Positions 42,172 to 52,105 of a DNA stretch of 64,000 bases are shown here, piece by piece. Location: assembly GCF_029229925.1 (NCBI RefSeq), contig NZ_CP107254.1, forward strand, positions 496,001-560,000, in the 5' to 3' direction. The notes under the pieces are model-generated. The model was not told where the DNA came from, searched no databases, and saw only the letters and a program-made list of their open reading frames with translations. The translations under genes were made by a program, and so were the position numbers. Each line of letters begins with the position of its first letter. The stretch's first letter is position 1. Source of the stretch: Halorhabdus sp. BNX81. GTDB lineage: Archaea; Halobacteriota; Halobacteria; Halobacteriales; Haloarculaceae.

Positions 42172-43059
42172 ATGACCCTCACCTCCTACGTCGAAGTCGG
42201 GGCCAATATTTTCGACGAGGAATGGGATTTAGCGATCATCCTGGATGGCTGCCGTGTCGACGCCTTAGAGCAAGTCGCGGACGAGTATGCGTTTCTTACC
42301 GACATCCAGACCGCCACATCACTCGGCTCGTCGTCGAAAGAATGGATGGTGAATACGTTCCAGGAAACCCACCGAAGTGAGATCGCTGAAACGATCTACA
42401 TCACTGGCAACGGCTGGGAGAACGATGTCCTCCGGGAGGACGTCCCGTTCTCCAATTGGACGGTCACGAAGGGAACGTGGGCCAACGACAATCGATTGGT
42501 CGACCGATTGCTTTACCGTCCAACCGCCACCGAGGCGGATTTCGAGCACCTCATTCATCAGCAACTGACAGACATCAACGGTGTCGACGCGTTCTGCCCG
42601 AAAGAGCTGACTGACTTGACAATAAAGGCGGGCAGGGAAAACGACGCGGAACGCGTGCTCGCCCATTACATGCAGCCTCACCAACCGTATATCCATCGCG
42701 CCGCCGCCGGGAATCCGGCCACTGAAATCGACAGCGATCCGTTTGGACACCTCGGTGAGGGCAACGACGATGCCGTCTGGGAGGCGTACCTCGACAACCT
42801 CCGGCATGCCTTAGATCAGGTAGCCGTTCTACTGGCGAATTTCGACGGCGATGTCCTCATCACCGCGGATCACGGCGAAATGTTCGGCCGACCACCGTTT
42901 GCAGGCCATGGTGAAGGGATCCCTCACCCGGCATTGAAACGTGTTCCCTGGGTGAAAACGACAGCTAGCGATCAGTCGACCCGGCAGCCGGACGTCGAGA
43001 TGTCAACAGAGCAGATAGACAATACAGCGGAGCGACTTTCGGCTCTTGGATATCTGTAG
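42172..43059 (+). CDS. Sulfatase-like alkaline-phosphatase-superfamily protein
   Basis: 295 residues. The metal-binding start ILDGCRVDAL is followed by SLGSSSKEWMVNTF, where a Ser stands at the usual nucleophile position instead of the Cys of true sulfatases, then HYMQPHQPYIH, and the late sites LITADHGEMFG and AGHGEG. There is no signal peptide, so it acts in the cytoplasm on a glycan intermediate or nucleotide sugar; the reaction (sulfo- or phospho-hydrolysis or transfer) is unknown. It ends in RLSALGYL, the same tail as the two related proteins of this island. Confidence 0.8.
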   Translation: MTLTSYVEVGANIFDEEWDLAIILDGCRVDALEQVADEYAFLTDIQTATSLGSSSKEWMVNTFQETHRSEIAETIYITGNGWENDVLREDVPFSNWTVTKGTWANDNRLVDRLLYRPTATEADFEHLIHQQLTDINGVDAFCPKELTDLTIKAGRENDAERVLAHYMQPHQPYIHRAAAGNPATEIDSDPFGHLGEGNDDAVWEAYLDNLRHALDQVAVLLANFDGDVLITADHGEMFGRPPFAGHGEGIPHPALKRVPWVKTTASDQSTRQPDVEMSTEQIDNTAERLSALGYL

Positions 43060-43107
43060 TGGACTTCTCACGGATCGTCGACTCGAGCGCGTCTCTACGA
43101 CGGTACA

Positions 43108-44655
43108 TCAATTACAGAATTCTAACGATATAGCCCCCGCTGAATAGATTTTGTGATTCCGTCGCTCTGCAATGGGGGGTGCTTCTTCACGATCGACGCG
43201 ATAGCCTTGGCAAGTGTCTGTCTCGCTGATCGCCCGAATGTCATCCGTAGCGAACTTCCAGAGTCCGGACTCCCAGACGTAGATCGCGTGGCTTTCATAT
43301 GCCGAGATCCACTCGCTTGCCGACCATTGTTGTCGGGTGTAGTGGCCTTCAGTAACAGATGTCCGATCCGGGTTTGAATACATCACCCAGGGGGCGATCG
43401 ACGCTACCTGTGTGACAATAAACAGTATTGCGAGGAGACTGATTAGCAACGTTTTCATCGGTCTGCGGTCTGCCGATGTGTATATAACGCCGACTGCACT
43501 CGCGGATAGTGGAATGAGGAGAAACGAGAGAAACCGGATCGGATCGACCGCGGTCAAACGCCCCATCGACAGCGAGACGGCGTAGAGAATCGCCACCACG
43601 CCGGCTGCTGCTCCTAATCCTTGTACCCACCCGGGGAGCCTGCGTTTTGATACGATTCCACACGCGATGATACTCGCGAAAAGACCGAGAACGACTATTG
43701 CCATCGACGCAATCGTTTCGCGGACGCCGCCGGCACTCCCACTAATCCCTGCCACCTCGCCGCCAGTCGACGTTACCACCGACTTGATTACGCTCACGAT
43801 TATCCATTCGGAGAAATCCAGTGTCAAGAAAACAAAAATCAGGGTGAATGAAAGTATCCCAAATATAACGAACGGGCCAACACTTGACCGGGGTTGAGTA
43901 ATTGTCTTCAGCCGGTCCGGAGTCAAGCCAAATGCACCGATACTAACCGCAAGAGACCAGCAAAGCAACGAAATCAACAACATCGAAATCGATAGATGAT
44001 GAGTGAGTGTGACCGCACAAATGAATATAAACCCCAGGAGATCGGTTCGCTTCGACCGACTCCACACTGTGAGCATGATGACTAGGGCAACGAAGACAAT
44101 TCCGAGCGATTCGGGGACGAATTTCGACTGAAACCCGATCAGCGTTCGTGTCGAGCCGAAAATGAGTGCCCCCAAGCCCGCTCCGGACGAGGAAATCACA
44201 TCCCGCAACGCCAAAAACAGGGCAACGGGAGCTATGAGACTAACTAACGGCACATACTTTGCAGCCACTTCCAGGGGGATGAAATTGGACAGGCCGGCAG
44301 TTAGCATATACATTAGCGGATACGAGTAGTTGTGTTCAAATGTACTATATCCGGGAGTATGCTCCAGTAACTCCGTTGTAAGCAGCAGATTATTATACGG
44401 ATCATGTCCGTAGAGGCCGATCTCAACCGGGTCCACGACGATCAACTTCGCGAGAAGTACAGTCAAGAGAATCAGCGACAGGATCTGAACATCGGTGAGT
44501 CGGCCGATTGAAACTGCAAGCGTTGTCCAAGCGAATATCCCCACGAGAAGAATGTACCCTAGCCACAGGTTCATTTGAGGTCTGAAGACTATGAAGGTGG
44601 CAATCGCCAATAAGGAAAAATATATCGAGAAGACGCTACGTGCTGGAATCCGCAT
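43108..44655 (-). CDS. GT-C-like polytopic membrane protein
   Basis: 515 residues with around 12 membrane helices. In the first outside loop, VVDPVEIGLYGHDPYNNLLL resembles the acidic first-loop motif of GT-C transferases such as STT3, PMT and ArnT. A helix later reads YSTFEHNYSYPLMYMLTAGLS. The C-terminal ~90 residues are soluble and outside. Such enzymes use polyprenyl-phosphate sugars outside the cell. A TATA-like tattttaaaat about 28 bases before ATG 44655 supports a leaderless start. The DNA is AT-rich like the flippase gene. Confidence 0.7.
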   Translation of the reverse strand: MRIPARSVFSIYFSLLAIATFIVFRPQMNLWLGYILLVGIFAWTTLAVSIGRLTDVQILSLILLTVLLAKLIVVDPVEIGLYGHDPYNNLLLTTELLEHTPGYSTFEHNYSYPLMYMLTAGLSNFIPLEVAAKYVPLVSLIAPVALFLALRDVISSSGAGLGALIFGSTRTLIGFQSKFVPESLGIVFVALVIMLTVWSRSKRTDLLGFIFICAVTLTHHLSISMLLISLLCWSLAVSIGAFGLTPDRLKTITQPRSSVGPFVIFGILSFTLIFVFLTLDFSEWIIVSVIKSVVTSTGGEVAGISGSAGGVRETIASMAIVVLGLFASIIACGIVSKRRLPGWVQGLGAAAGVVAILYAVSLSMGRLTAVDPIRFLSFLLIPLSASAVGVIYTSADRRPMKTLLISLLAILFIVTQVASIAPWVMYSNPDRTSVTEGHYTRQQWSASEWISAYESHAIYVWESGLWKFATDDIRAISETDTCQGYRVDREEAPPIAERRNHKIYSAGAISLEFCN

Positions 44656-44862
44656 GGTACTGAGTTAATGTAGATCGATTTTAAAATAGTATTGGTTGTC
44701 CATATGTAACGTGCTTATTGGGATGTTGGATCAGCAGTCCTCATCGCGCGACGGTCATCTCCATGGTGGTCGGCGCCAGCTCCCACCCCGTTGTTCAATA
44801 TCGTCCGGGAGCAAGAGGAAGAGTTACAGTCATTGAATCTACCTTTTTGATTGAGTGGTTCC

Positions 44863-46038
44863 ATGAACGTCGCATTCGTCACCGCTGAATACCCGCCGAA
44901 GAATATTGGGGGTGCGGGCATCAGCAGCAAACTCATCGTCGATGAACTACGGCGGCAGGATGTCTCTACTGACGTCTTTGTTCTCAACGGGGACGACCGG
45001 CAAGTGAACCGGATCTCATCAAACCGGTACGAACATCCAAGCGGTGGGGCCTATCCCGTTCCCGAGGAGATCGGGGAGAACCTGAGCGTCCTTCATACAC
45101 TTTCAGACTTGGCGGAGTATGATGTCGTTCATTCCTATAACACCGGTCATCTTCCCGCCGTCGTCGCACGCGCTTCCCCGCCAGTCGTAGCCACCATCAA
45201 CAACCACATGTGGGTCTGTGTCGACCCGACACAGTTTTTGAAAGACGGGTGTCCACCGTCAAATCCGCGGCAAGTGTATCGATATGCGGGGACGGCCGGC
45301 TATTCCGGGATCCGACGGATCGGGCGGGTTGGCCTTGAGTACCTCGGTCGGTCCATGGCGAAACGGGCCGATGCGATCACTGTTCAAAACGAGGGTATGA
45401 AACACGTTCTCAGCCGGTGTGGCTACGCTGTGGATACCATCTCCGTCATTCCCAATTTAGTCGATCCCCAGTTCTTCGTCGAGAACGATGGGACGGAGGC
45501 CGACGAGAAGCGGACACTCGTCTTTTTGGGACGACTCGTCGAAAACAAAGGTCCAGTGCACGCGGCGAACGCCTTCGTTGATCTTCCCCGGGACATTCAT
45601 CGCAACTGGGAATTTCACATCTACGGGCAGGGCCCACAAGCGTCCACAATCGAACGACTGATTGACACCAGCCCGGCGGAGGTCGATATCGAGCTCAAAT
45701 ACTCGCCATACCCGGAATTACCCGCTGTGTATCGGAGTGCAGATGCCCTCTTTCATGCTTCGCGATACACTGAACCCTTCTCACGGACGTGGTTAGAGGC
45801 GATGGCGTCGAACACGCCGATCATCTGTTCGAGGAATCCGAGCTCGGAAGCAGTCTTGTCCGACGTGGCAGTGCTGTATGACCTCTTCGACGAGGGTGAG
45901 CCACAAGCGACGTTGGCCGACGTATTGAGGCGAGACGACCTTCAGCGCCTCGCGCGGAAGGGGAGAGAACTGATCGAACGCTATCGACCTGCCGTCGTTT
46001 GCACCGAGTATATCGACCTCTACGAGGACGTGATCTGA
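44863..46038 (+). CDS. GT4-type glycosyltransferase
   Basis: 391 residues with the GT-B fold. N-lobe: VAFVTAEYPPKNIGGAGISS with a Gly-rich loop, and VVHSYNTGHLPAV. C-lobe: LVFLGRLVENKGPVHAANAF, FHIYGQGPQAS and the EPFSRTWLEAMAS segment that holds the GT4 Glu-x7-Glu motif for the sugar nucleotide. It should transfer a sugar in the cytoplasm. ATG 44863 gives the conserved start. It overlaps tail-to-tail with the next GT4 gene by 19 bases. Confidence 0.9.
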   Translation: MNVAFVTAEYPPKNIGGAGISSKLIVDELRRQDVSTDVFVLNGDDRQVNRISSNRYEHPSGGAYPVPEEIGENLSVLHTLSDLAEYDVVHSYNTGHLPAVVARASPPVVATINNHMWVCVDPTQFLKDGCPPSNPRQVYRYAGTAGYSGIRRIGRVGLEYLGRSMAKRADAITVQNEGMKHVLSRCGYAVDTISVIPNLVDPQFFVENDGTEADEKRTLVFLGRLVENKGPVHAANAFVDLPRDIHRNWEFHIYGQGPQASTIERLIDTSPAEVDIELKYSPYPELPAVYRSADALFHASRYTEPFSRTWLEAMASNTPIICSRNPSSEAVLSDVAVLYDLFDEGEPQATLADVLRRDDLQRLARKGRELIERYRPAVVCTEYIDLYEDVI

Positions 46039-47084
46039 TTTTCGCCATTTTGGGATCGCCCGGCATAGACGGTTGTCGTGCGACCGGCGACCGATTCCCA
46101 GGAGAACTGCCGGGACGTCTGGGCGAATGCATCTATGACGCGCCTCTGGACCTCCCGCTCGGAGTCGAACTTTCGAATTCGATCGGCCACTGCGCTCCCA
46201 TCCCTCTCGGCTAGAAAGGCGTCTTCACACTCGATCATGTGCCGGAACGCGGGACAATCCGTCACGATCGCCGGGACGTGCCAGCTAAGCGTGTGGCTGA
46301 GTATTCCGGACATCGACGTATGGTGTTCGTAGGCGAGCACTACCACGTCCGCCTCCTGAAATGCTTCGAATAAGGTTTCCTCCGGGACGAACTCCGTAAC
46401 CCATTCGATCCGGTCGTTGACTCCAAGCTGGTCGGCTATGGACCGGATTTCGCGAAAATATTCCTCGTTCCCGATGCCCCCGACGATTCTCAGTTCGACG
46501 TTCTCGATGGACGGGAGTGCACTTATCACAACCTCGTGTCCCTTTATGGGGCGAATCCCGCCTGGCAAGAGGATCGTGTCGATCTCCCGTGGATGTCGAT
46601 CGACGTTGTCGCGTGCGACGACTCCGTGTTCGATAACGGTCACTTTCGGGTGGTGTCGCTTCCAGATCAGTTGCTTTCGACCGTCCGTATGTACGATGAC
46701 TGTATCGACAAAGCAGTACAGCAGTTGATGATACAGGAACAGCAGCGTTGGGGCAGGGAGGTTGTCGAAGCGTTCGTGTTGTGTCATTACGACCCGGGTC
46801 CGCAACAGGATGCAGATACCCAACAGCAGCGGGAACGAGAGCAGATATCGACCGAAGGCGTACTGCACGTGGACGACATCGCGCCTGAACAGATTGCTGA
46901 GCAGCGTTCGATTCAACAGCGCGATCCCGCTTCCTCGGAGATGAATCGGCTCGTTGTCCCACGGGACGACTGCAACGTCGCATGAGTTGCGGAGCTTTGG
47001 AACGAGAGCCCGGCTGTAGGTTGCCAACCCGCCATTCCGATTCCAGGGGGAGATAAACGTAACTGTCGGTGGCTCGCCAGTCAT
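46020..47084 (-). CDS. GT4-type glycosyltransferase
   Basis: 354 residues, GT-B fold. VTFISPWNRNGGLATYSRAL is the N-lobe start, VHVQYAFGRY and VVMTQHERFD follow, and the C-lobe has ILLPGGIRPIKGHEVVISAL, RIVGGIGNEEYFREI and ADVVVLAYEHHTSMSGILS. The last is in the Glu-x7-Glu place but has Ser and Gly variations, which is common in this subfamily. It starts at the stop of the sulfatase gene (one base shared), so the two form one operon. Confidence 0.85.
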   Translation of the reverse strand: MTGEPPTVTFISPWNRNGGLATYSRALVPKLRNSCDVAVVPWDNEPIHLRGSGIALLNRTLLSNLFRRDVVHVQYAFGRYLLSFPLLLGICILLRTRVVMTQHERFDNLPAPTLLFLYHQLLYCFVDTVIVHTDGRKQLIWKRHHPKVTVIEHGVVARDNVDRHPREIDTILLPGGIRPIKGHEVVISALPSIENVELRIVGGIGNEEYFREIRSIADQLGVNDRIEWVTEFVPEETLFEAFQEADVVVLAYEHHTSMSGILSHTLSWHVPAIVTDCPAFRHMIECEDAFLAERDGSAVADRIRKFDSEREVQRRVIDAFAQTSRQFSWESVAGRTTTVYAGRSQNGENQITSS

Positions 47085-48346
47085 TATTTATACCCGAGCG
47101 CTTCGAGTCGTCGCTCGATGTTTCCATCAACGTTTTCAGACGGACGCTTCCCATCGCCAGTCTCCCGTCGGATCCGCTCTTGGACGTGCGTTTCAAGTTC
47201 GGAACGCAATCCCTGATCGGCACAGTCCGCGTACTCGACGGCATTGGACCCACAGTCACGCTCGCACCTGCAGGTTTCCTGGTGTGTCCGTACCGCATAT
47301 CGCTTGAGATGGCTGTGATTGTCTTCCCCCTGAACCTGAAGAAAGACGGGCCGATCCCCGTCTCGGTCCGCAAGCGCTGATTCTCCCGGGAGATCGGCGT
47401 CCCTTCCAATCATATCCAGTATCGTGGCTGCGATATCAAGTGTACTCGTCGGCGCTTCGAGCACGCTGGCTTTGTTCCCGGGCGGTTGCACGATCATCGG
47501 CACGTGTGTGAGTTCGTCATGCAAATACCGGGGATGCCCATAGCACCCATGTTCCCCGAAGGCCTCCCCGTGATCGGCTGTGATGAGGACGATCGCATCC
47601 TCCAGTAGCTCACGCTCCCGAAGCGACGCTAAAAACCGTCCGATATATTCGTCGTTGTATTTTATCTCCCCATCATATAGGTCAATCAAAAGGCGTTGCT
47701 CATCGTCAGTGATCGATTCCGGGTCGTTGATAGCTCGCTTGTAGAGACGTTGTGCTTCCCGTCCGGAGATCTCACGGTCGGCGTACAGCGTTGCGTATTC
47801 CGCTGGTGGATTATACGGTCCGTGTGTGTCCAGGTAGTGGTTCCAGAGGAAAAACGGCTCCCCGGTATCGATGGAGTCGAGCCACGCAAGCGCCCGTCGA
47901 TTGATTTCTTCCGCTCGCGCGTAATGCCGGTTCCGGAGCTTATCAAGTGCCCGCTGAGCGAGCGCAATGATTTTGTGTTGTCCCAGGTAAAGGTCGTCGT
48001 CAAACGTGTCGAATCCCCGGTCGAAGTTGTAGGACCGAGACAGGTATGGATTCGAGTGAAAGCCGGCGGTTGCATACCCGTGTTCCGAGAGCCTCGATGC
48101 GATCGTATTCGACACGAGGTGGTATTTCGAATCGATCGCGACATCCGGGTACTGGCCGGTCATCAACGCGGGGACTGCTTCTCGGGTGTGGGAACTCACG
48201 CTATACGCGTTCCTGAACCGCACCGATCCCTGTGCAAACTCGTCGAGTTCCGGCGTGGTGTTTCGTCTGTACCCATAGCAGCCGAGGTGATCTGCTCTGA
48301 GAGCGTCACATGATATGAGTATCACGTTGTTCGAGGACCCGGTCAT
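47084..48346 (-). CDS. Sulfatase-family protein (Ser-type)
   Basis: 420 residues. Metal-site start LISCDALRADHLGCYGY, nucleophile region VSSHTREAVPALMTGQYP (Ser where classic sulfatases have Cys or Ser in C/S-x-P-x-R; here Ser-His-Thr-Arg), then FFLWNHYLDTHGPYNPP and VLITADHGEAFGEHGCYGHP with the later metal ligands. No signal peptide. It ends IERRLEALGYK, like the proteins at 42172 and 49725. A TATA-like taaataaat about 28 bases upstream suits ATG 48346. Presumed to act on sulfated or phosphorylated glycan intermediates. Confidence 0.85.
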   Translation of the reverse strand: MTGSSNNVILISCDALRADHLGCYGYRRNTTPELDEFAQGSVRFRNAYSVSSHTREAVPALMTGQYPDVAIDSKYHLVSNTIASRLSEHGYATAGFHSNPYLSRSYNFDRGFDTFDDDLYLGQHKIIALAQRALDKLRNRHYARAEEINRRALAWLDSIDTGEPFFLWNHYLDTHGPYNPPAEYATLYADREISGREAQRLYKRAINDPESITDDEQRLLIDLYDGEIKYNDEYIGRFLASLRERELLEDAIVLITADHGEAFGEHGCYGHPRYLHDELTHVPMIVQPPGNKASVLEAPTSTLDIAATILDMIGRDADLPGESALADRDGDRPVFLQVQGEDNHSHLKRYAVRTHQETCRCERDCGSNAVEYADCADQGLRSELETHVQERIRRETGDGKRPSENVDGNIERRLEALGYK

Positions 48347-48532
48347 TTGAACTATCCTATTGTTGGTTGTGTGATTTATTTGTTCTTTTTGATTTAGGAG
48401 AATTCAGTATGGCTCTTTTATCTGGCCCCACTATCCCGGCTGCAACGCAGAGGAGGCATCGCCCCGATCTTGACAAGTTACTGTACTTTCATAGGGTATA
48501 TCAAACAGTGCTGAAATACTGTACGTACTCAG

Positions 48533-49669
48533 ATGCGCATCCTGATGATCAACAAGCGCCCGCCCTATCGGAACACGGGCGCCGAGAAGGTATTATGGGG
48601 GATCGCCCGGAAACTGGTTGAGGCGGGCCATTCCGTGACGATTTTTTGTCCGACCCCTGCAGACCGGGAGAGCGAAACACATCCCGAAATCGACTTCCGA
48701 TATGTGTCTACAGGCGGTGGCCCGGACAGAAGCATGATCGAATTCTTCCTGAAAGGCCCCCGGACGTATCCATCGGTATACCGCGACGTTTCTCCGGATC
48801 TCGTCTACGACAATCCATCGCCGTTTCCGTTCCACCTTGCCCACCTCTATGGGGACGCCCAGCGAATTACAAAGCTGCATGGGATCTATCGACGTCTCGC
48901 GTTCTCCTGTAAGGATCATCCGCTGGTGAAGGTCGGCACAGCTGTCGGTGATGAACTGTATCGGCTCTTTCGCGGTGAAGTTATCACGACAAACTCACTC
49001 TCGACAGCCCACCGAGCCAGACAGGTCTTTACTACTGACTCGAATCGTATCATCGCGAATCCGATCGGTATCGACGCTGCTGAATATACGTTCTCGATCC
49101 GATCCGATGAGAAACACGTGCTGAGTCTCTCGGAATTGCGCACCAGAAAACAGATCAACGTGCTCCTCAGGGCGTGGAAATACGTTGAGTCGGCCCACCC
49201 GGACGCCAGATTGACCGTCGCCGGTGACGGCCAGCAGCGGGACTCCCTCGAACGATTGGCAACCGACCTTGATTTGGAAACCGTCACTTTCGAGGGATGG
49301 GTCACGGAGGAACGAAAGCACGAACTGTTGGCGTCCGCAGCGATTTATGCGCTTCCGACGCTCTACGAGGGGTTCGGGTTGGCTAATCTCGAAGCGATGG
49401 CGTCCGGTTGTGCTGTCGTGAGCACTGATACATGGGGGGTCCGGGATTATCTTCGGGATGGGGAAAACGGGCGGCTCGTCCCGACAAAAGACCCGCCAGC
49501 GCTCGCGACGGTCATTGATTCATTACTGAGTGAGCCTGCACAGATCGAACGACTCGCAACCGCCGGCCGCGAGACTGCGGCCGAATATTCGATGGCGGAG
49601 AGCATTACTCGGGAAGTCCGACTCCTCGAACAGATTCACGAAGACGGAGATATGTTCGCCGAAGCGTGA
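48533..49669 (+). CDS. GT4-type glycosyltransferase
   Basis: 378 residues, full GT-B fold. RILMINKRPPYRNTGAEKVL opens the N-lobe; RITKLHGIYRRLAF and IIANPIGIDA lead to the C-lobe: VLSLSELRTRKQINVLLRAW, LTVAGDGQQRDSLE, and ALPTLYEGFGLANLEAMASG with both Glu of the GT4 motif (EGFGLANLE). Cytoplasmic retaining glycosyltransferase; donor unknown. It is 55 bases before the phosphodiesterase gene, which has its own promoter. Confidence 0.9.
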   Translation: MRILMINKRPPYRNTGAEKVLWGIARKLVEAGHSVTIFCPTPADRESETHPEIDFRYVSTGGGPDRSMIEFFLKGPRTYPSVYRDVSPDLVYDNPSPFPFHLAHLYGDAQRITKLHGIYRRLAFSCKDHPLVKVGTAVGDELYRLFRGEVITTNSLSTAHRARQVFTTDSNRIIANPIGIDAAEYTFSIRSDEKHVLSLSELRTRKQINVLLRAWKYVESAHPDARLTVAGDGQQRDSLERLATDLDLETVTFEGWVTEERKHELLASAAIYALPTLYEGFGLANLEAMASGCAVVSTDTWGVRDYLRDGENGRLVPTKDPPALATVIDSLLSEPAQIERLATAGRETAAEYSMAESITREVRLLEQIHEDGDMFAEA

Positions 49670-49694
49670 TCGCCTGGGTGATGAACCGGATGGG

Positions 49695-49705
49695 TTTTTA
49701 ATTTA
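49695..49705 (+). promoter_or_regulatory. TATA box of the phosphodiesterase-like gene
   Basis: The stretch tttttaattta is centred about 25 bases upstream of ATG 49725, in an otherwise GC-rich gap, and is the best-placed leaderless archaeal promoter in the window. Confidence 0.5.
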
Positions 49706-49724
49706 GGCCGATAATGGGTTCGTA

Positions 49725-51269
49725 ATGACACGTACAGTTGTCATCGGGCTGGATGGCTCCAACTGGCCGCTCGTCCAGCCCTGGATCGATGCGGGTCGAC
49801 TCCCGAACTTCGCCACCCTACAAAGCGAGGGGTGCCACGGCATTTCCCGCTCGCATCTCCCCCCGGTAACCTGCCCGAACTGGAAGTGCTACGCTTCGGG
49901 CAAGAACCCAGGTAGGCTCGGCGTTTACTGGTGGGAACGCATTGACACGGAGGATCAGGCGATGCAGCTTCCGGATGCAACGGACTTCATTGCTCCGGAG
50001 ATCTGGGACTACCTCAATGACGAAAACGAAACAGCCGGGGTCATCAACCTCCCGATGTCCTACCCACCGCGGGACATAGATGCATTCATGATCGCCGGCG
50101 GTCCCCGATCGAGGGAGCAACACTACACGATACCCGAGACCTTGGAGGCGGAGATCGAAGAGCGGTTCGACTATCGCGTCCATCCCGAGAACGTACTGAC
50201 GACGAACGAAAACGCGGACGCGGAAGTCGAGATGGTCTATGACTTACTGCGGACGCGGCTCCGTACGGCACGGACACTCCTCGAAGAACGCGACCTCGAG
50301 TTTCTTCACGTCACACTCTTTCATCTCAACGTTCTCCAGCATTACTTCTGGGACGCACAGGAGACCAGGCGGGCCTACGAGATCATCGACGAAGAACTGG
50401 AACCGTTTCTCGACGGTGAGTACAATCTCGTCCTGCTGTCGGACCACGGGTGTACCGATATCGATACCGTCTTTTACGTCAATACGTGGCTTGCGGAACA
50501 CGGGTATCTTTCGACAAAAACCAGCGTATCGTCCAGACTTCACGATGCGGGTCTCACACAGGAACGCATCGCGAACATTATCCGAACGGTAAACCTCGAA
50601 AAGTACATCCGGCCGCTCGTTCCACGGTCGATCATCGAGCGATTCCCGACCGACGACGGCGTCGTTCGTGAAGCGAAACTCAACATGGTGGACTGGGGGA
50701 ATACAACGGCGATCGGTAGCGGCCAGGGACTGATCTACGTGGTCGCGGACACCGACCGGGAACGGGAACGTATTCTCTCCGACCTGGAAGCGGAGCTATC
50801 GGCTGCCACGGCGTTGAACGGGGAAGCGATCACACGGGCGGTTCACCGCCGAGAGGATGTCTATGAAGGTCCGCACGTAGAGACGGCCCCGGACCTGATC
50901 TTCGATCAGCGCCCCGGCGTTCACACCAGTGAGGCGATGGGGCGGGACGAAGTCATGTCCGAGCCGACGAATTGGCGTGGCGAGAACGTCCCGGATGGCA
51001 TGGTTCTGTTCCACGGTGAGGATATTCAGGCGGGTGAACTCGATCCGGTCCGGATAACGGACATCGCGCCGACGATCCTTCACTGGATGGGGCACCCTGT
51101 GCCAACCGACATGGACGGTGGGGTCGTGGATGCCGTGTTTACACCCGACAGTGACCCTGGAACACGTGATGTCACGCACCGTCCGCCGTTGCGTACCCAG
51201 GACGGGGCAAGCGAAGCGCTCACCGACGACGTGGAGGACCGGCTAGCGCAGATCGGCTATCTGGAGTAG
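49725..51269 (+). CDS. Phosphodiesterase/nucleotide-pyrophosphatase-type protein
   Basis: 514 residues of the alkaline phosphatase superfamily, type I phosphodiesterase branch. VVIGLDGSNW gives the first metal Asp, PPVTCPNWKCYASGKNPGRLG holds the Thr nucleophile, FLHVTLFHLNVLQHYFWD and LVLLSDHGCTDID give the next metal ligands, and VLFHGEDI the last. These enzymes split nucleotide sugars or phosphodiesters; no signal peptide, so a cytoplasmic glycan intermediate is a likely substrate. It ends DRLAQIGYLE, similar to the two sulfatase-like proteins here. The 3' end overlaps the converging deacetylase by 13 bases. Confidence 0.85.
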   Translation: MTRTVVIGLDGSNWPLVQPWIDAGRLPNFATLQSEGCHGISRSHLPPVTCPNWKCYASGKNPGRLGVYWWERIDTEDQAMQLPDATDFIAPEIWDYLNDENETAGVINLPMSYPPRDIDAFMIAGGPRSREQHYTIPETLEAEIEERFDYRVHPENVLTTNENADAEVEMVYDLLRTRLRTARTLLEERDLEFLHVTLFHLNVLQHYFWDAQETRRAYEIIDEELEPFLDGEYNLVLLSDHGCTDIDTVFYVNTWLAEHGYLSTKTSVSSRLHDAGLTQERIANIIRTVNLEKYIRPLVPRSIIERFPTDDGVVREAKLNMVDWGNTTAIGSGQGLIYVVADTDRERERILSDLEAELSAATALNGEAITRAVHRREDVYEGPHVETAPDLIFDQRPGVHTSEAMGRDEVMSEPTNWRGENVPDGMVLFHGEDIQAGELDPVRITDIAPTILHWMGHPVPTDMDGGVVDAVFTPDSDPGTRDVTHRPPLRTQDGASEALTDDVEDRLAQIGYLE

Positions 51270-52105
51270 TCGGTCCCGTTCGGCTGTAAGCTATCCGCAA
51301 GTCCGTCGAGTGTTTCGAAGGCATACCCGGCCTGTCTACTGCGTCGGAGAAATCGATCCAGCAGCTCGAACCCATGGTCGTTCCGCGCATAGATCGTCTT
51401 GTACAGCGGTGACAGCTCGCTGTAGGAGGGGGGCGTCACCAGGTCGTGCATGTGAACGTTGAAGATCAGCGTCCGCGGTGGCCTGCGTTCGAGGAGTACG
51501 GCAAACGGTTTGCCGAGGACTCGGACGTACGAAAGGGCCGTCGGGATCCGAACGGAATCAGCGTATACCGTAAACGGGATCTCGACGAGTCCAACGTCGG
51601 GGAGTACATGCGGTCGGGTCGGGAGATCGGTGTTGTCGAAGTGATTCGGCCGCCACGACGGAAACACACTCGCATCGAACCGGTACCCGTGGTCGGCCAA
51701 CAGTTCATAATCGGCCGGTGTGATGTTCCCGTTCGGAAACCGATAGCCAGTCGGTTGCTCCCCGAAGAACTCCACGTAGCGCTCCGTACTTCGTGTGAGT
51801 TCCGTGCCGATCGATGTTTCCGACCGTGGTCTGTGCGTGTGGGAATGTGGGTGAAACGCCACCTCGGTTTGACTCGTCTGTAAGGTCTCAACCACGTCCG
51901 GCTTGACCTGGAGGAGTTCGGTCTGGACGAACGTTGTCAGCGGGACTCCGTGTGTTTCGAGCAAGTCAACGAGCCGATCAACGTGTTCGACGGCTCCATA
52001 CCGGTTCTCCGATAGCGCCGTGCCGAAATCGCACTCGAAATCGAGCGTCAGATAGACTGTCTGTTCGTGTGGCCAGTCGCGAAGGTCACGCTCAGTCTCA
52101 CTCAT
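51257..52105 (-). CDS. Polysaccharide deacetylase (NodB type), cytoplasmic
   Basis: 282 residues. Motif 1 is YLTLDFECDFG (acidic pair in place), motif 2 is FHPHSHTHRP with two His for the metal, motif 3 YRFPNGNIT, and TLIFNVHMHDLVTP gives the late His. No signal peptide, unlike the lipoproteins at 16-19 kb, so it should deacetylate a cytoplasmic glycan intermediate. It is 15 bases after the GT2 gene 52121-53464 and in the same operon; its 3' end overlaps the phosphodiesterase gene. Confidence 0.87.
   Translation of the reverse strand: MSETERDLRDWPHEQTVYLTLDFECDFGTALSENRYGAVEHVDRLVDLLETHGVPLTTFVQTELLQVKPDVVETLQTSQTEVAFHPHSHTHRPRSETSIGTELTRSTERYVEFFGEQPTGYRFPNGNITPADYELLADHGYRFDASVFPSWRPNHFDNTDLPTRPHVLPDVGLVEIPFTVYADSVRIPTALSYVRVLGKPFAVLLERRPPRTLIFNVHMHDLVTPPSYSELSPLYKTIYARNDHGFELLDRFLRRSRQAGYAFETLDGLADSLQPNGTDYSR

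Follow-up and report, generated by a model that had tools for sequence, protein, structure and literature searches.

A shared C-terminal LGY tail in alkaline phosphatase-superfamily enzymes of Halorhabdus sp. BNX81: a candidate docking helix in cis or in trans

Proteins A, B and C and their C-termini

The window analysed here, a stretch of 64,000 nucleotides of Halorhabdus sp. BNX81 (positions 496001–560000 of the single 2.83 Mb contig), contains three genes for proteins of the alkaline phosphatase (AP) superfamily, termed A, B and C, and this study concerns the short C-terminal tail that the three proteins share. As originally predicted from the sequence of the window, the three open reading frames (ORFs) have a common C-terminus, RL-x-x-(L/I)GY: A ends in ..NTAERLSALGYL (ERLSALGYL), B in ..IERRLEALGYK and C in ..DVEDRLAQIGYLE (DRLAQIGYLE). 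The features are listed in Table 1. The DNA coding for the tail of C (51237–51269) overlaps the 3' end of a convergent polysaccharide-deacetylase ORF (51257–52105, minus strand).

Table 1. AP-superfamily proteins of the window and their C-terminal tails (window coordinates; aa, amino acids).
Feature	Position	Strand	Basis
Protein A, 295 aa, small AP-superfamily protein, weakly sulfatase-like	42172..43059	+	ORF; homologues
Tail of A (AERLSALGYL)	43027..43056	+	ORF end
Protein B, 420 aa, PF00884 fold, Thr54 in the nucleophile column	47084..48346	-	Profile, model, alignment
Tail of B (ERRLEALGYK), predicted helix 406–417 after a linker	47087..47116	-	ORF end; AlphaFold
Protein C, 514 aa, PF01663 type I phosphodiesterase fold	49725..51269	+	Profile, model
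Tail of C (DRLAQIGYLE)	51237..51266	+	ORF end

By Pfam profile, B (PF00884 Sulfatase, 3e-53) and C (PF01663 Phosphodiest, 9e-34) belong to the AP superfamily, and A matches PF00884 weakly (0.034, below the cut-off). The predicted structure of B matches sulfatases with Z up to 37.8, and weak matches to the EptA and LtaS profiles fall below their cut-offs. The Thr-type transferases and hydrolases of the superfamily (EptA, LtaS, NPP) use Thr as the nucleophile, and their Asp and Asp-His metal ligands are conserved. The aligned relatives of B conserve D14 (70/70), T54 (69/70), D258 (70/70), H259 (70/70) and H271 (69/70), with column 54 taken as the probable nucleophile from its distance to the LLTG motif, and B appears by its sequence to fit the Thr-type pattern. 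An identity as a formylglycine (S1-type) sulfatase, which needs a Cys or Ser nucleophile, was rejected, and the label of Ser-type sulfatase given to B earlier is to be dropped, because its nucleophile column is Thr.

According to the sections of PMC11980604 on Agl30 and Agl31, the Halobacterium salinarum AP-superfamily proteins VNG1056C (Agl30), which is membrane-associated, and VNG1057C (Agl31), which is soluble, sulfate N-glycan sugars, and both gave sulfated glycans in Haloferax when carrying C-terminal tags. Translation of the cloning primers of that paper gives the endings ..HLEDLGYL for Agl30 and ..LEELGYT for Agl31, before the tag, and KELGYIE for VNG1063H, so that the same tail is present on all three studied Halobacterium proteins; the sections on Agl30 and Agl31 do not remark on it. 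Agl30 and Agl31 resemble A, B and C in superfamily, in their setting within a haloarchaeal glycan cluster and in the LGY ending, a likeness that does not imply orthology, and by this analogy A, B and C may be glycan-modifying, perhaps sulfate-transferring, enzymes.

In an alignment of 36 tails, the rows of which were picked for having the tail, L, G and Y are invariant and the second L is nearly so, within a helix-like frame that commonly has an acidic start. The linkers before the tail vary in length and sequence among homologues, and the tail itself is constant. In the AlphaFold model of B the linker (residues 400–405) has a pLDDT of <50 and is followed by the helix formed by residues 406–417, with a mean of ~82 for residues 411–420. 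Profile matches to solved sulfatases mostly stop short of the tail, near position 410 of 434, and a few reach 422–427; one VIA structural match spans model residues 5–419 of B, and was left unused because its root-mean-square deviation is 6.1. Since the tail comes after a variable linker and none of the solved relatives was seen to extend over it, it cannot be regarded simply as a piece of the ordinary fold. The objection foreseen in the original prediction, that the tail might belong to the ordinary fold of all family members, is disfavoured by the same solved relatives and by L006 and L009 of this genome, which are tail-less. A need for a free C-terminus is likewise disfavoured, by the activity of tagged Agl30 and Agl31 and by seven relatives that have a further stretch after the tail. 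In five long bacterial proteins with an internal tail, the tail is followed by TPR repeats (L089, L098, L108 and L111) or by HEAT repeats (L081).

Distribution of the tail

The genome was searched with the PF00884 and PF01663 profiles, with protein A as a query and with two patterns for the tail, after which the ORFs were read. Fourteen AP-superfamily proteins were found, 11 of which are tail-ended: A, B, C and those at genome positions 482551, 673762, 787774, 1048553, 1056926, 2126448, 2325288 and 2506348. In the protein at 483443 the tail is placed 24 residues before the end, and two proteins (408346 and 40895) have no tail. The pattern LxxLGY near a stop is no commoner in the whole genome than in a reversed control (59 raw matches versus 54), and a stricter tail pattern gave 23 matches versus 14; the unusual feature is the in-frame C-terminal placement on one superfamily, not the raw frequency of the pattern. 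Fourteen L..[LI]GY endings are in frame and C-terminal, and they comprise the 11 AP-superfamily proteins, one small protein of the ribbon-helix-helix (RHH) type (69 aa, genome position 1920358), one PAPS-reductase/CysD-like protein (genome position 745822) and one other, LAGIGY followed by a stop at genome position 1470105 on the minus strand.

Sequences similar to B were found at 80 loci, 79 of which have closed ORFs (the ORF of the Thermoplasmatota locus L057 is cut, and its tail state was not counted). Among the 79, 57 are tail-ended, seven have an internal tail followed by a further stretch and 15 have none, the last figure including L110, in which the motif stands 23 residues before the end. 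Homologues of A are tail-ended in 29 of 30 loci (L149 was scored tail-less because the script chose another ORF there, with one stop inside), as are homologues of C in 29 of 30. By their record titles, the tail-bearing B-like proteins come from Halobacteria, Planctomycetota, Acidobacteria, Myxococcota, Omnitrophota, Deltaproteobacteria and others, and the archaeal B-like loci outside Halobacteria are all tail-less (Thermoplasmatota L063, L070 and L085, Sigynarchaeota L102 and Bathyarchaeota L113). Viral relatives were looked for and none were found. The conserved ending [R/K]LxxLGY(L/I/M/K)x after a variable linker is thus shown by three AP branches in archaea and by their bacterial relatives, and it marks a broad AP-superfamily enzyme class. 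The tail had been regarded as the signature of a single glycan island; it occurs at several other places in the genome and across bacteria, and an island-specific signal was rejected on that ground.

Of 42 non-haloarchaeal tail-bearing B-like loci, 22 have a hydrophobic stretch ahead of the core and 13 of the 42 show a lipobox-like motif, versus 1/15 and 0/15, respectively, of the haloarchaeal ones. Since export-like and leaderless N-termini both occur with the tail, it serves proteins that are likely to reside in different compartments. At locus L236 (G056:C1:1322000-1341500), eight tail-ended ORFs lie within 19.5 kb, seven of them AP-like as judged by eye and one RHH-type.

Small RHH-like and CysD-like tail carriers

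Small, weakly RHH-like proteins carry the same tail, mainly beside AP genes that lack it. When the flanks of the 80 B-related loci were scanned for tail-ended ORFs, 15 rows were obtained besides those of plain full-length AP genes. Among them are four small RHH-like proteins, all bacterial (L054, L074, L096 and L105), and three CysD-like proteins (L075, L082 and L117); a fourth CysD-like protein occurs in L087. Only two (L047, 96 aa; L054, 48 aa) of the 96 tail-ended ORFs of this set fall outside the AP-like, RHH-like and CysD-like groups, in a count that takes ORFs of at least 200 aa with a DHG/DHA/SHG motif as AP without individual reading. A small tail ORF at L078 was discarded as a frame artefact, the tail lying in another frame.

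The haloarchaeal small RHH-like proteins are tail-ended in all 60 loci read, and most matches among them extend to the last residues even at 29–48% identity. The resemblance between the haloarchaeal small tail protein and a bacterial one extends along their length, at 32% and with a value of 3e-6 in a search of a small database. The 69-aa family matches RHH_1 at 7e-4 with 19.9 bits, near but under the cut-off of 20.5; among the divergent small carriers, the match is 0.11 for L096, and there is none for L054, L105, L230 and L232. The RHH name is provisional because the Pfam support is weak.

The CysD/PAPS-reductase-like genes, which end in [LM]xxLGY[MF], adjoin tail-less sulfatase-fold genes in L075, L082, L087 and L117. 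An arylsulfotransferase-like gene lies near the CysD-like gene in L075 and L082 (by Pfam only for L075), and a CysN-like GTPase, recognized by eye, lies near that in L117. Such neighbours occur in 4/15 tail-less loci versus 0/64 others, counts that were combined by hand and in which two of the four come from one metagenome-assembled genome. The neighbours of tail-less sulfatases end in ..MERLRQLGYF or ..MARLRMLGYM, and CysD of the solved structure 1zun_A ends in ..MEEKKRQGYF; the CysD fold (PAPS_reduct, PF01507) differs from that of the AP superfamily, and its ending is likely to be a trait of its own family.

Tail in cis or in trans

Small tail genes lie at most 15 kb from a listed AP place in 26 of 109 places, compared with ~1.7 expected for a genome size taken as 3.5 Mb, a count made among listed AP places and with related members. 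In 20 regions that were read, the AP neighbour of the small tail gene tends to be tail-less; the search found no AP gene in L313, L317, L319 and L320, and only a partial, distant or unclear one in L308, L310, L315 and L323. Among B-like enzymes related to that of L314, an RHH-like tail gene is present within 6 kb of 17/22 tail-less enzymes versus 1/8 tail-bearing enzymes (Fisher p = 0.0025). Among phosphodiesterases related to that of L322, a small tail gene stands beside 3/4 tail-less versus 0/26 tail-bearing enzymes within 1.5 kb on each side; here, the script gave 2/4 (p 0.014), and L356 was added by hand, giving about 0.001, while the small ORFs at L358 (antisense) and L360 (part of an AP protein) were left out of the count. 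L355 is absent among the listed RHH matches.

In bacteria, the small tail protein of L054 is paired with a tail-less sulfatase, and those of L074, L096 and L105 are paired with tail-less phosphodiesterases, the sulfatase-type member of the run keeping its tail. In each of these three loci, one AP gene of the sulfatase type and two or three of the phosphodiesterase type form a run that ends in the small tail-carrying RHH-like gene. Small gene and AP gene are divergent in L307, L311, L314, L316 and L321, convergent in L306, L318 and L322, and on the same strand in L054, L074, L096, L105, L304 and L305. The divergent and convergent pairs exclude the halves of a split or frame-shifted gene wherever the small gene is on the opposite strand.

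Several tail-less enzymes of both comparisons have a helix-like end, ..ERERIxxAxxxL, which, from its sequence as read by eye, could be the partner-binding end of the tail-less enzymes. Written more loosely, roughly as (S/T)xERxxIxxAxxxL, this second C-terminal motif seems by eye to recur in tail-less AP enzymes of two branches, those of L063, L070, L085 and L102 as well as those of the two comparisons.

Discussion

The reading that we tentatively prefer, while placing it somewhat below an even chance, is that a broad AP-superfamily class uses the tail as a portable docking helix, which is supplied in cis or in trans and most probably docks onto the enzyme assembly. Each working AP enzyme would need one copy of the tail, either carried in cis at its own C-terminus or provided in trans by a small partner, and the tail would dock onto the catalytic assembly, on its own or a neighbouring protomer, near the mouth of the active site, much as the longer C-terminal extensions do that are found in choline sulfatase and in phosphonate monoester hydrolase. 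As described in the parts of PMC5870055 on these extensions, those of choline sulfatase SmCS and its relatives mediate oligomers and in SmCS help to form the active site of the neighbour, and in SmCS, phosphonate monoester hydrolase and the dimeric arylsulfatases, all of the AP superfamily, the C-terminal tail reaches another protomer. The SmCS extension differs in being longer and folded, at ~60 residues, whereas here a helix of ~12 residues follows a variable linker and is sometimes found on a separate small protein. In view of these extensions and of what is reported of Agl30 and Agl31, the simplest mechanism is one in which the tail docks onto the enzyme assembly, with an external receptor close behind. 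A fuller version, which is possible but which we hold with less confidence, is that AP enzymes that modify glycans require one LGY docking helix each and that the small RHH-like proteins, for all their likeness to regulators, are dedicated trans subunits which lend it to enzymes that lost or never had one; in a bolder extension, the tail would imitate the C-terminus of CysD and thereby couple sulfate-transferring AP enzymes to the sulfate-activation machinery.

Several observations weigh against the portable docking helix. The tail–enzyme contact is conjectural, as the predictions give only the tail helix, with moderate confidence in B and low confidence in C (~64, from an alignment of only 13 sequences). 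At 3 kb the test on B-like enzymes weakens to 12/22 versus 1/8 (p = 0.09), the p-values are not independent because the family members are related, and no small tail gene was in range for 5/22 tail-less B-like enzymes and 1/4 tail-less phosphodiesterases. No small tail ORF was found in the examined flanks of the tail-less loci L063, L070, L085, L093, L102, L104, L109 and L113. Finally, 40/59 genomes encode the 69-aa RHH protein at ≥78% identity, mostly far from listed AP genes, and where its gene does lie close to glycan islands this may simply reflect the order of the chromosome.

The tail was originally proposed to be a docking signal for a common partner or for the membrane. A docking-type module agrees with the variable, low-confidence linker, with the small-protein carriers and with the trans pattern, whereas a membrane anchor is disfavoured, since Agl31, ending in ..LEELGYT, is soluble according to the section of PMC11980604 on it. 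A common external partner is possible and not needed, since a dock on the enzyme explains the same facts. Such a partner, be it a scaffold, a glycosyltransferase or a helical-repeat protein, would read the tail and gather the enzymes, with the RHH-like protein as an adaptor lending the address to tail-less ones. This is rather unlikely in our estimation, although it would account for a tail that three AP branches share with small proteins and with CysD-like ones, and by the logic of gene fusion the TPR or HEAT repeats that follow an internal tail could be the partner. One receptor would, however, be needed in several compartments, the tail being on both export-like and leaderless proteins, and no shared receptor gene was recognized by eye among the recurrent neighbours, which are AP, glycosyltransferase-like, epimerase-like and other ordinary families; Agl30 and Agl31, as described in the sections on them, also work in a foreign host. 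The encapsulation and docking peptides of bacterial compartments are short amphipathic helices after a flexible linker that are portable between unrelated cargo. The tail resembles them in helix and linker, and here no shell or receptor gene was recognized.

Two further explanations dispense with docking. The sequence L-x-x-L-G-Y is a plausible helix stop, and the tail might be a generic self-capped amphipathic helix, with a Gly C-cap and then Tyr, that stabilizes the C-terminus and owes its persistence to descent or convergence, with no specific role; CysD of 1zun ends similarly as a trait of its own family. We consider this improbable, as a passive cap would not be expected to show the cis-or-trans pattern or to be so nearly confined to AP-like, RHH-like and CysD-like ORFs. 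Less probable still is an ordinary regulatory role, in which the RHH-like proteins would locally control transcription of the adjoining AP genes and the likeness of their tail to that of the enzymes would be convergent and unrelated. RHH proteins usually bind DNA, several of the pairs are divergent and the 69-aa family is a near-threshold match to RHH_1, all of which would suit a regulator; convergent and same-strand pairs are also seen, however, the small gene favours tail-less enzymes, and the divergent members fall under the RHH_1 cut-off or are unmatched.

A literature search for an LGY motif named in sulfatases found none, and nothing on the tail was seen in searches that paired RHH with AP or with sulfatases, or that looked for RHH in connection with haloarchaea and glycosylation.

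Conclusions

In conclusion, this study reports a C-terminal tail on AP-superfamily enzymes of archaea and bacteria, the docking role of which is now supported by a stronger and unexpected pattern, its occurrence in cis or in trans, than that on which it was first proposed. If this role is correct, a very common class of prokaryotic 'sulfatases' would carry an unrecognized docking element, and many small RHH-like genes would encode enzyme subunits rather than regulators. The tail would then provide a sequence mark with which to pair orphan small genes with their enzymes, as well as a handle on the assembly or substrate feeding of cytosolic AP-superfamily proteins, among them Agl30 and Agl31, the recently identified sulfotransferases of haloarchaea.

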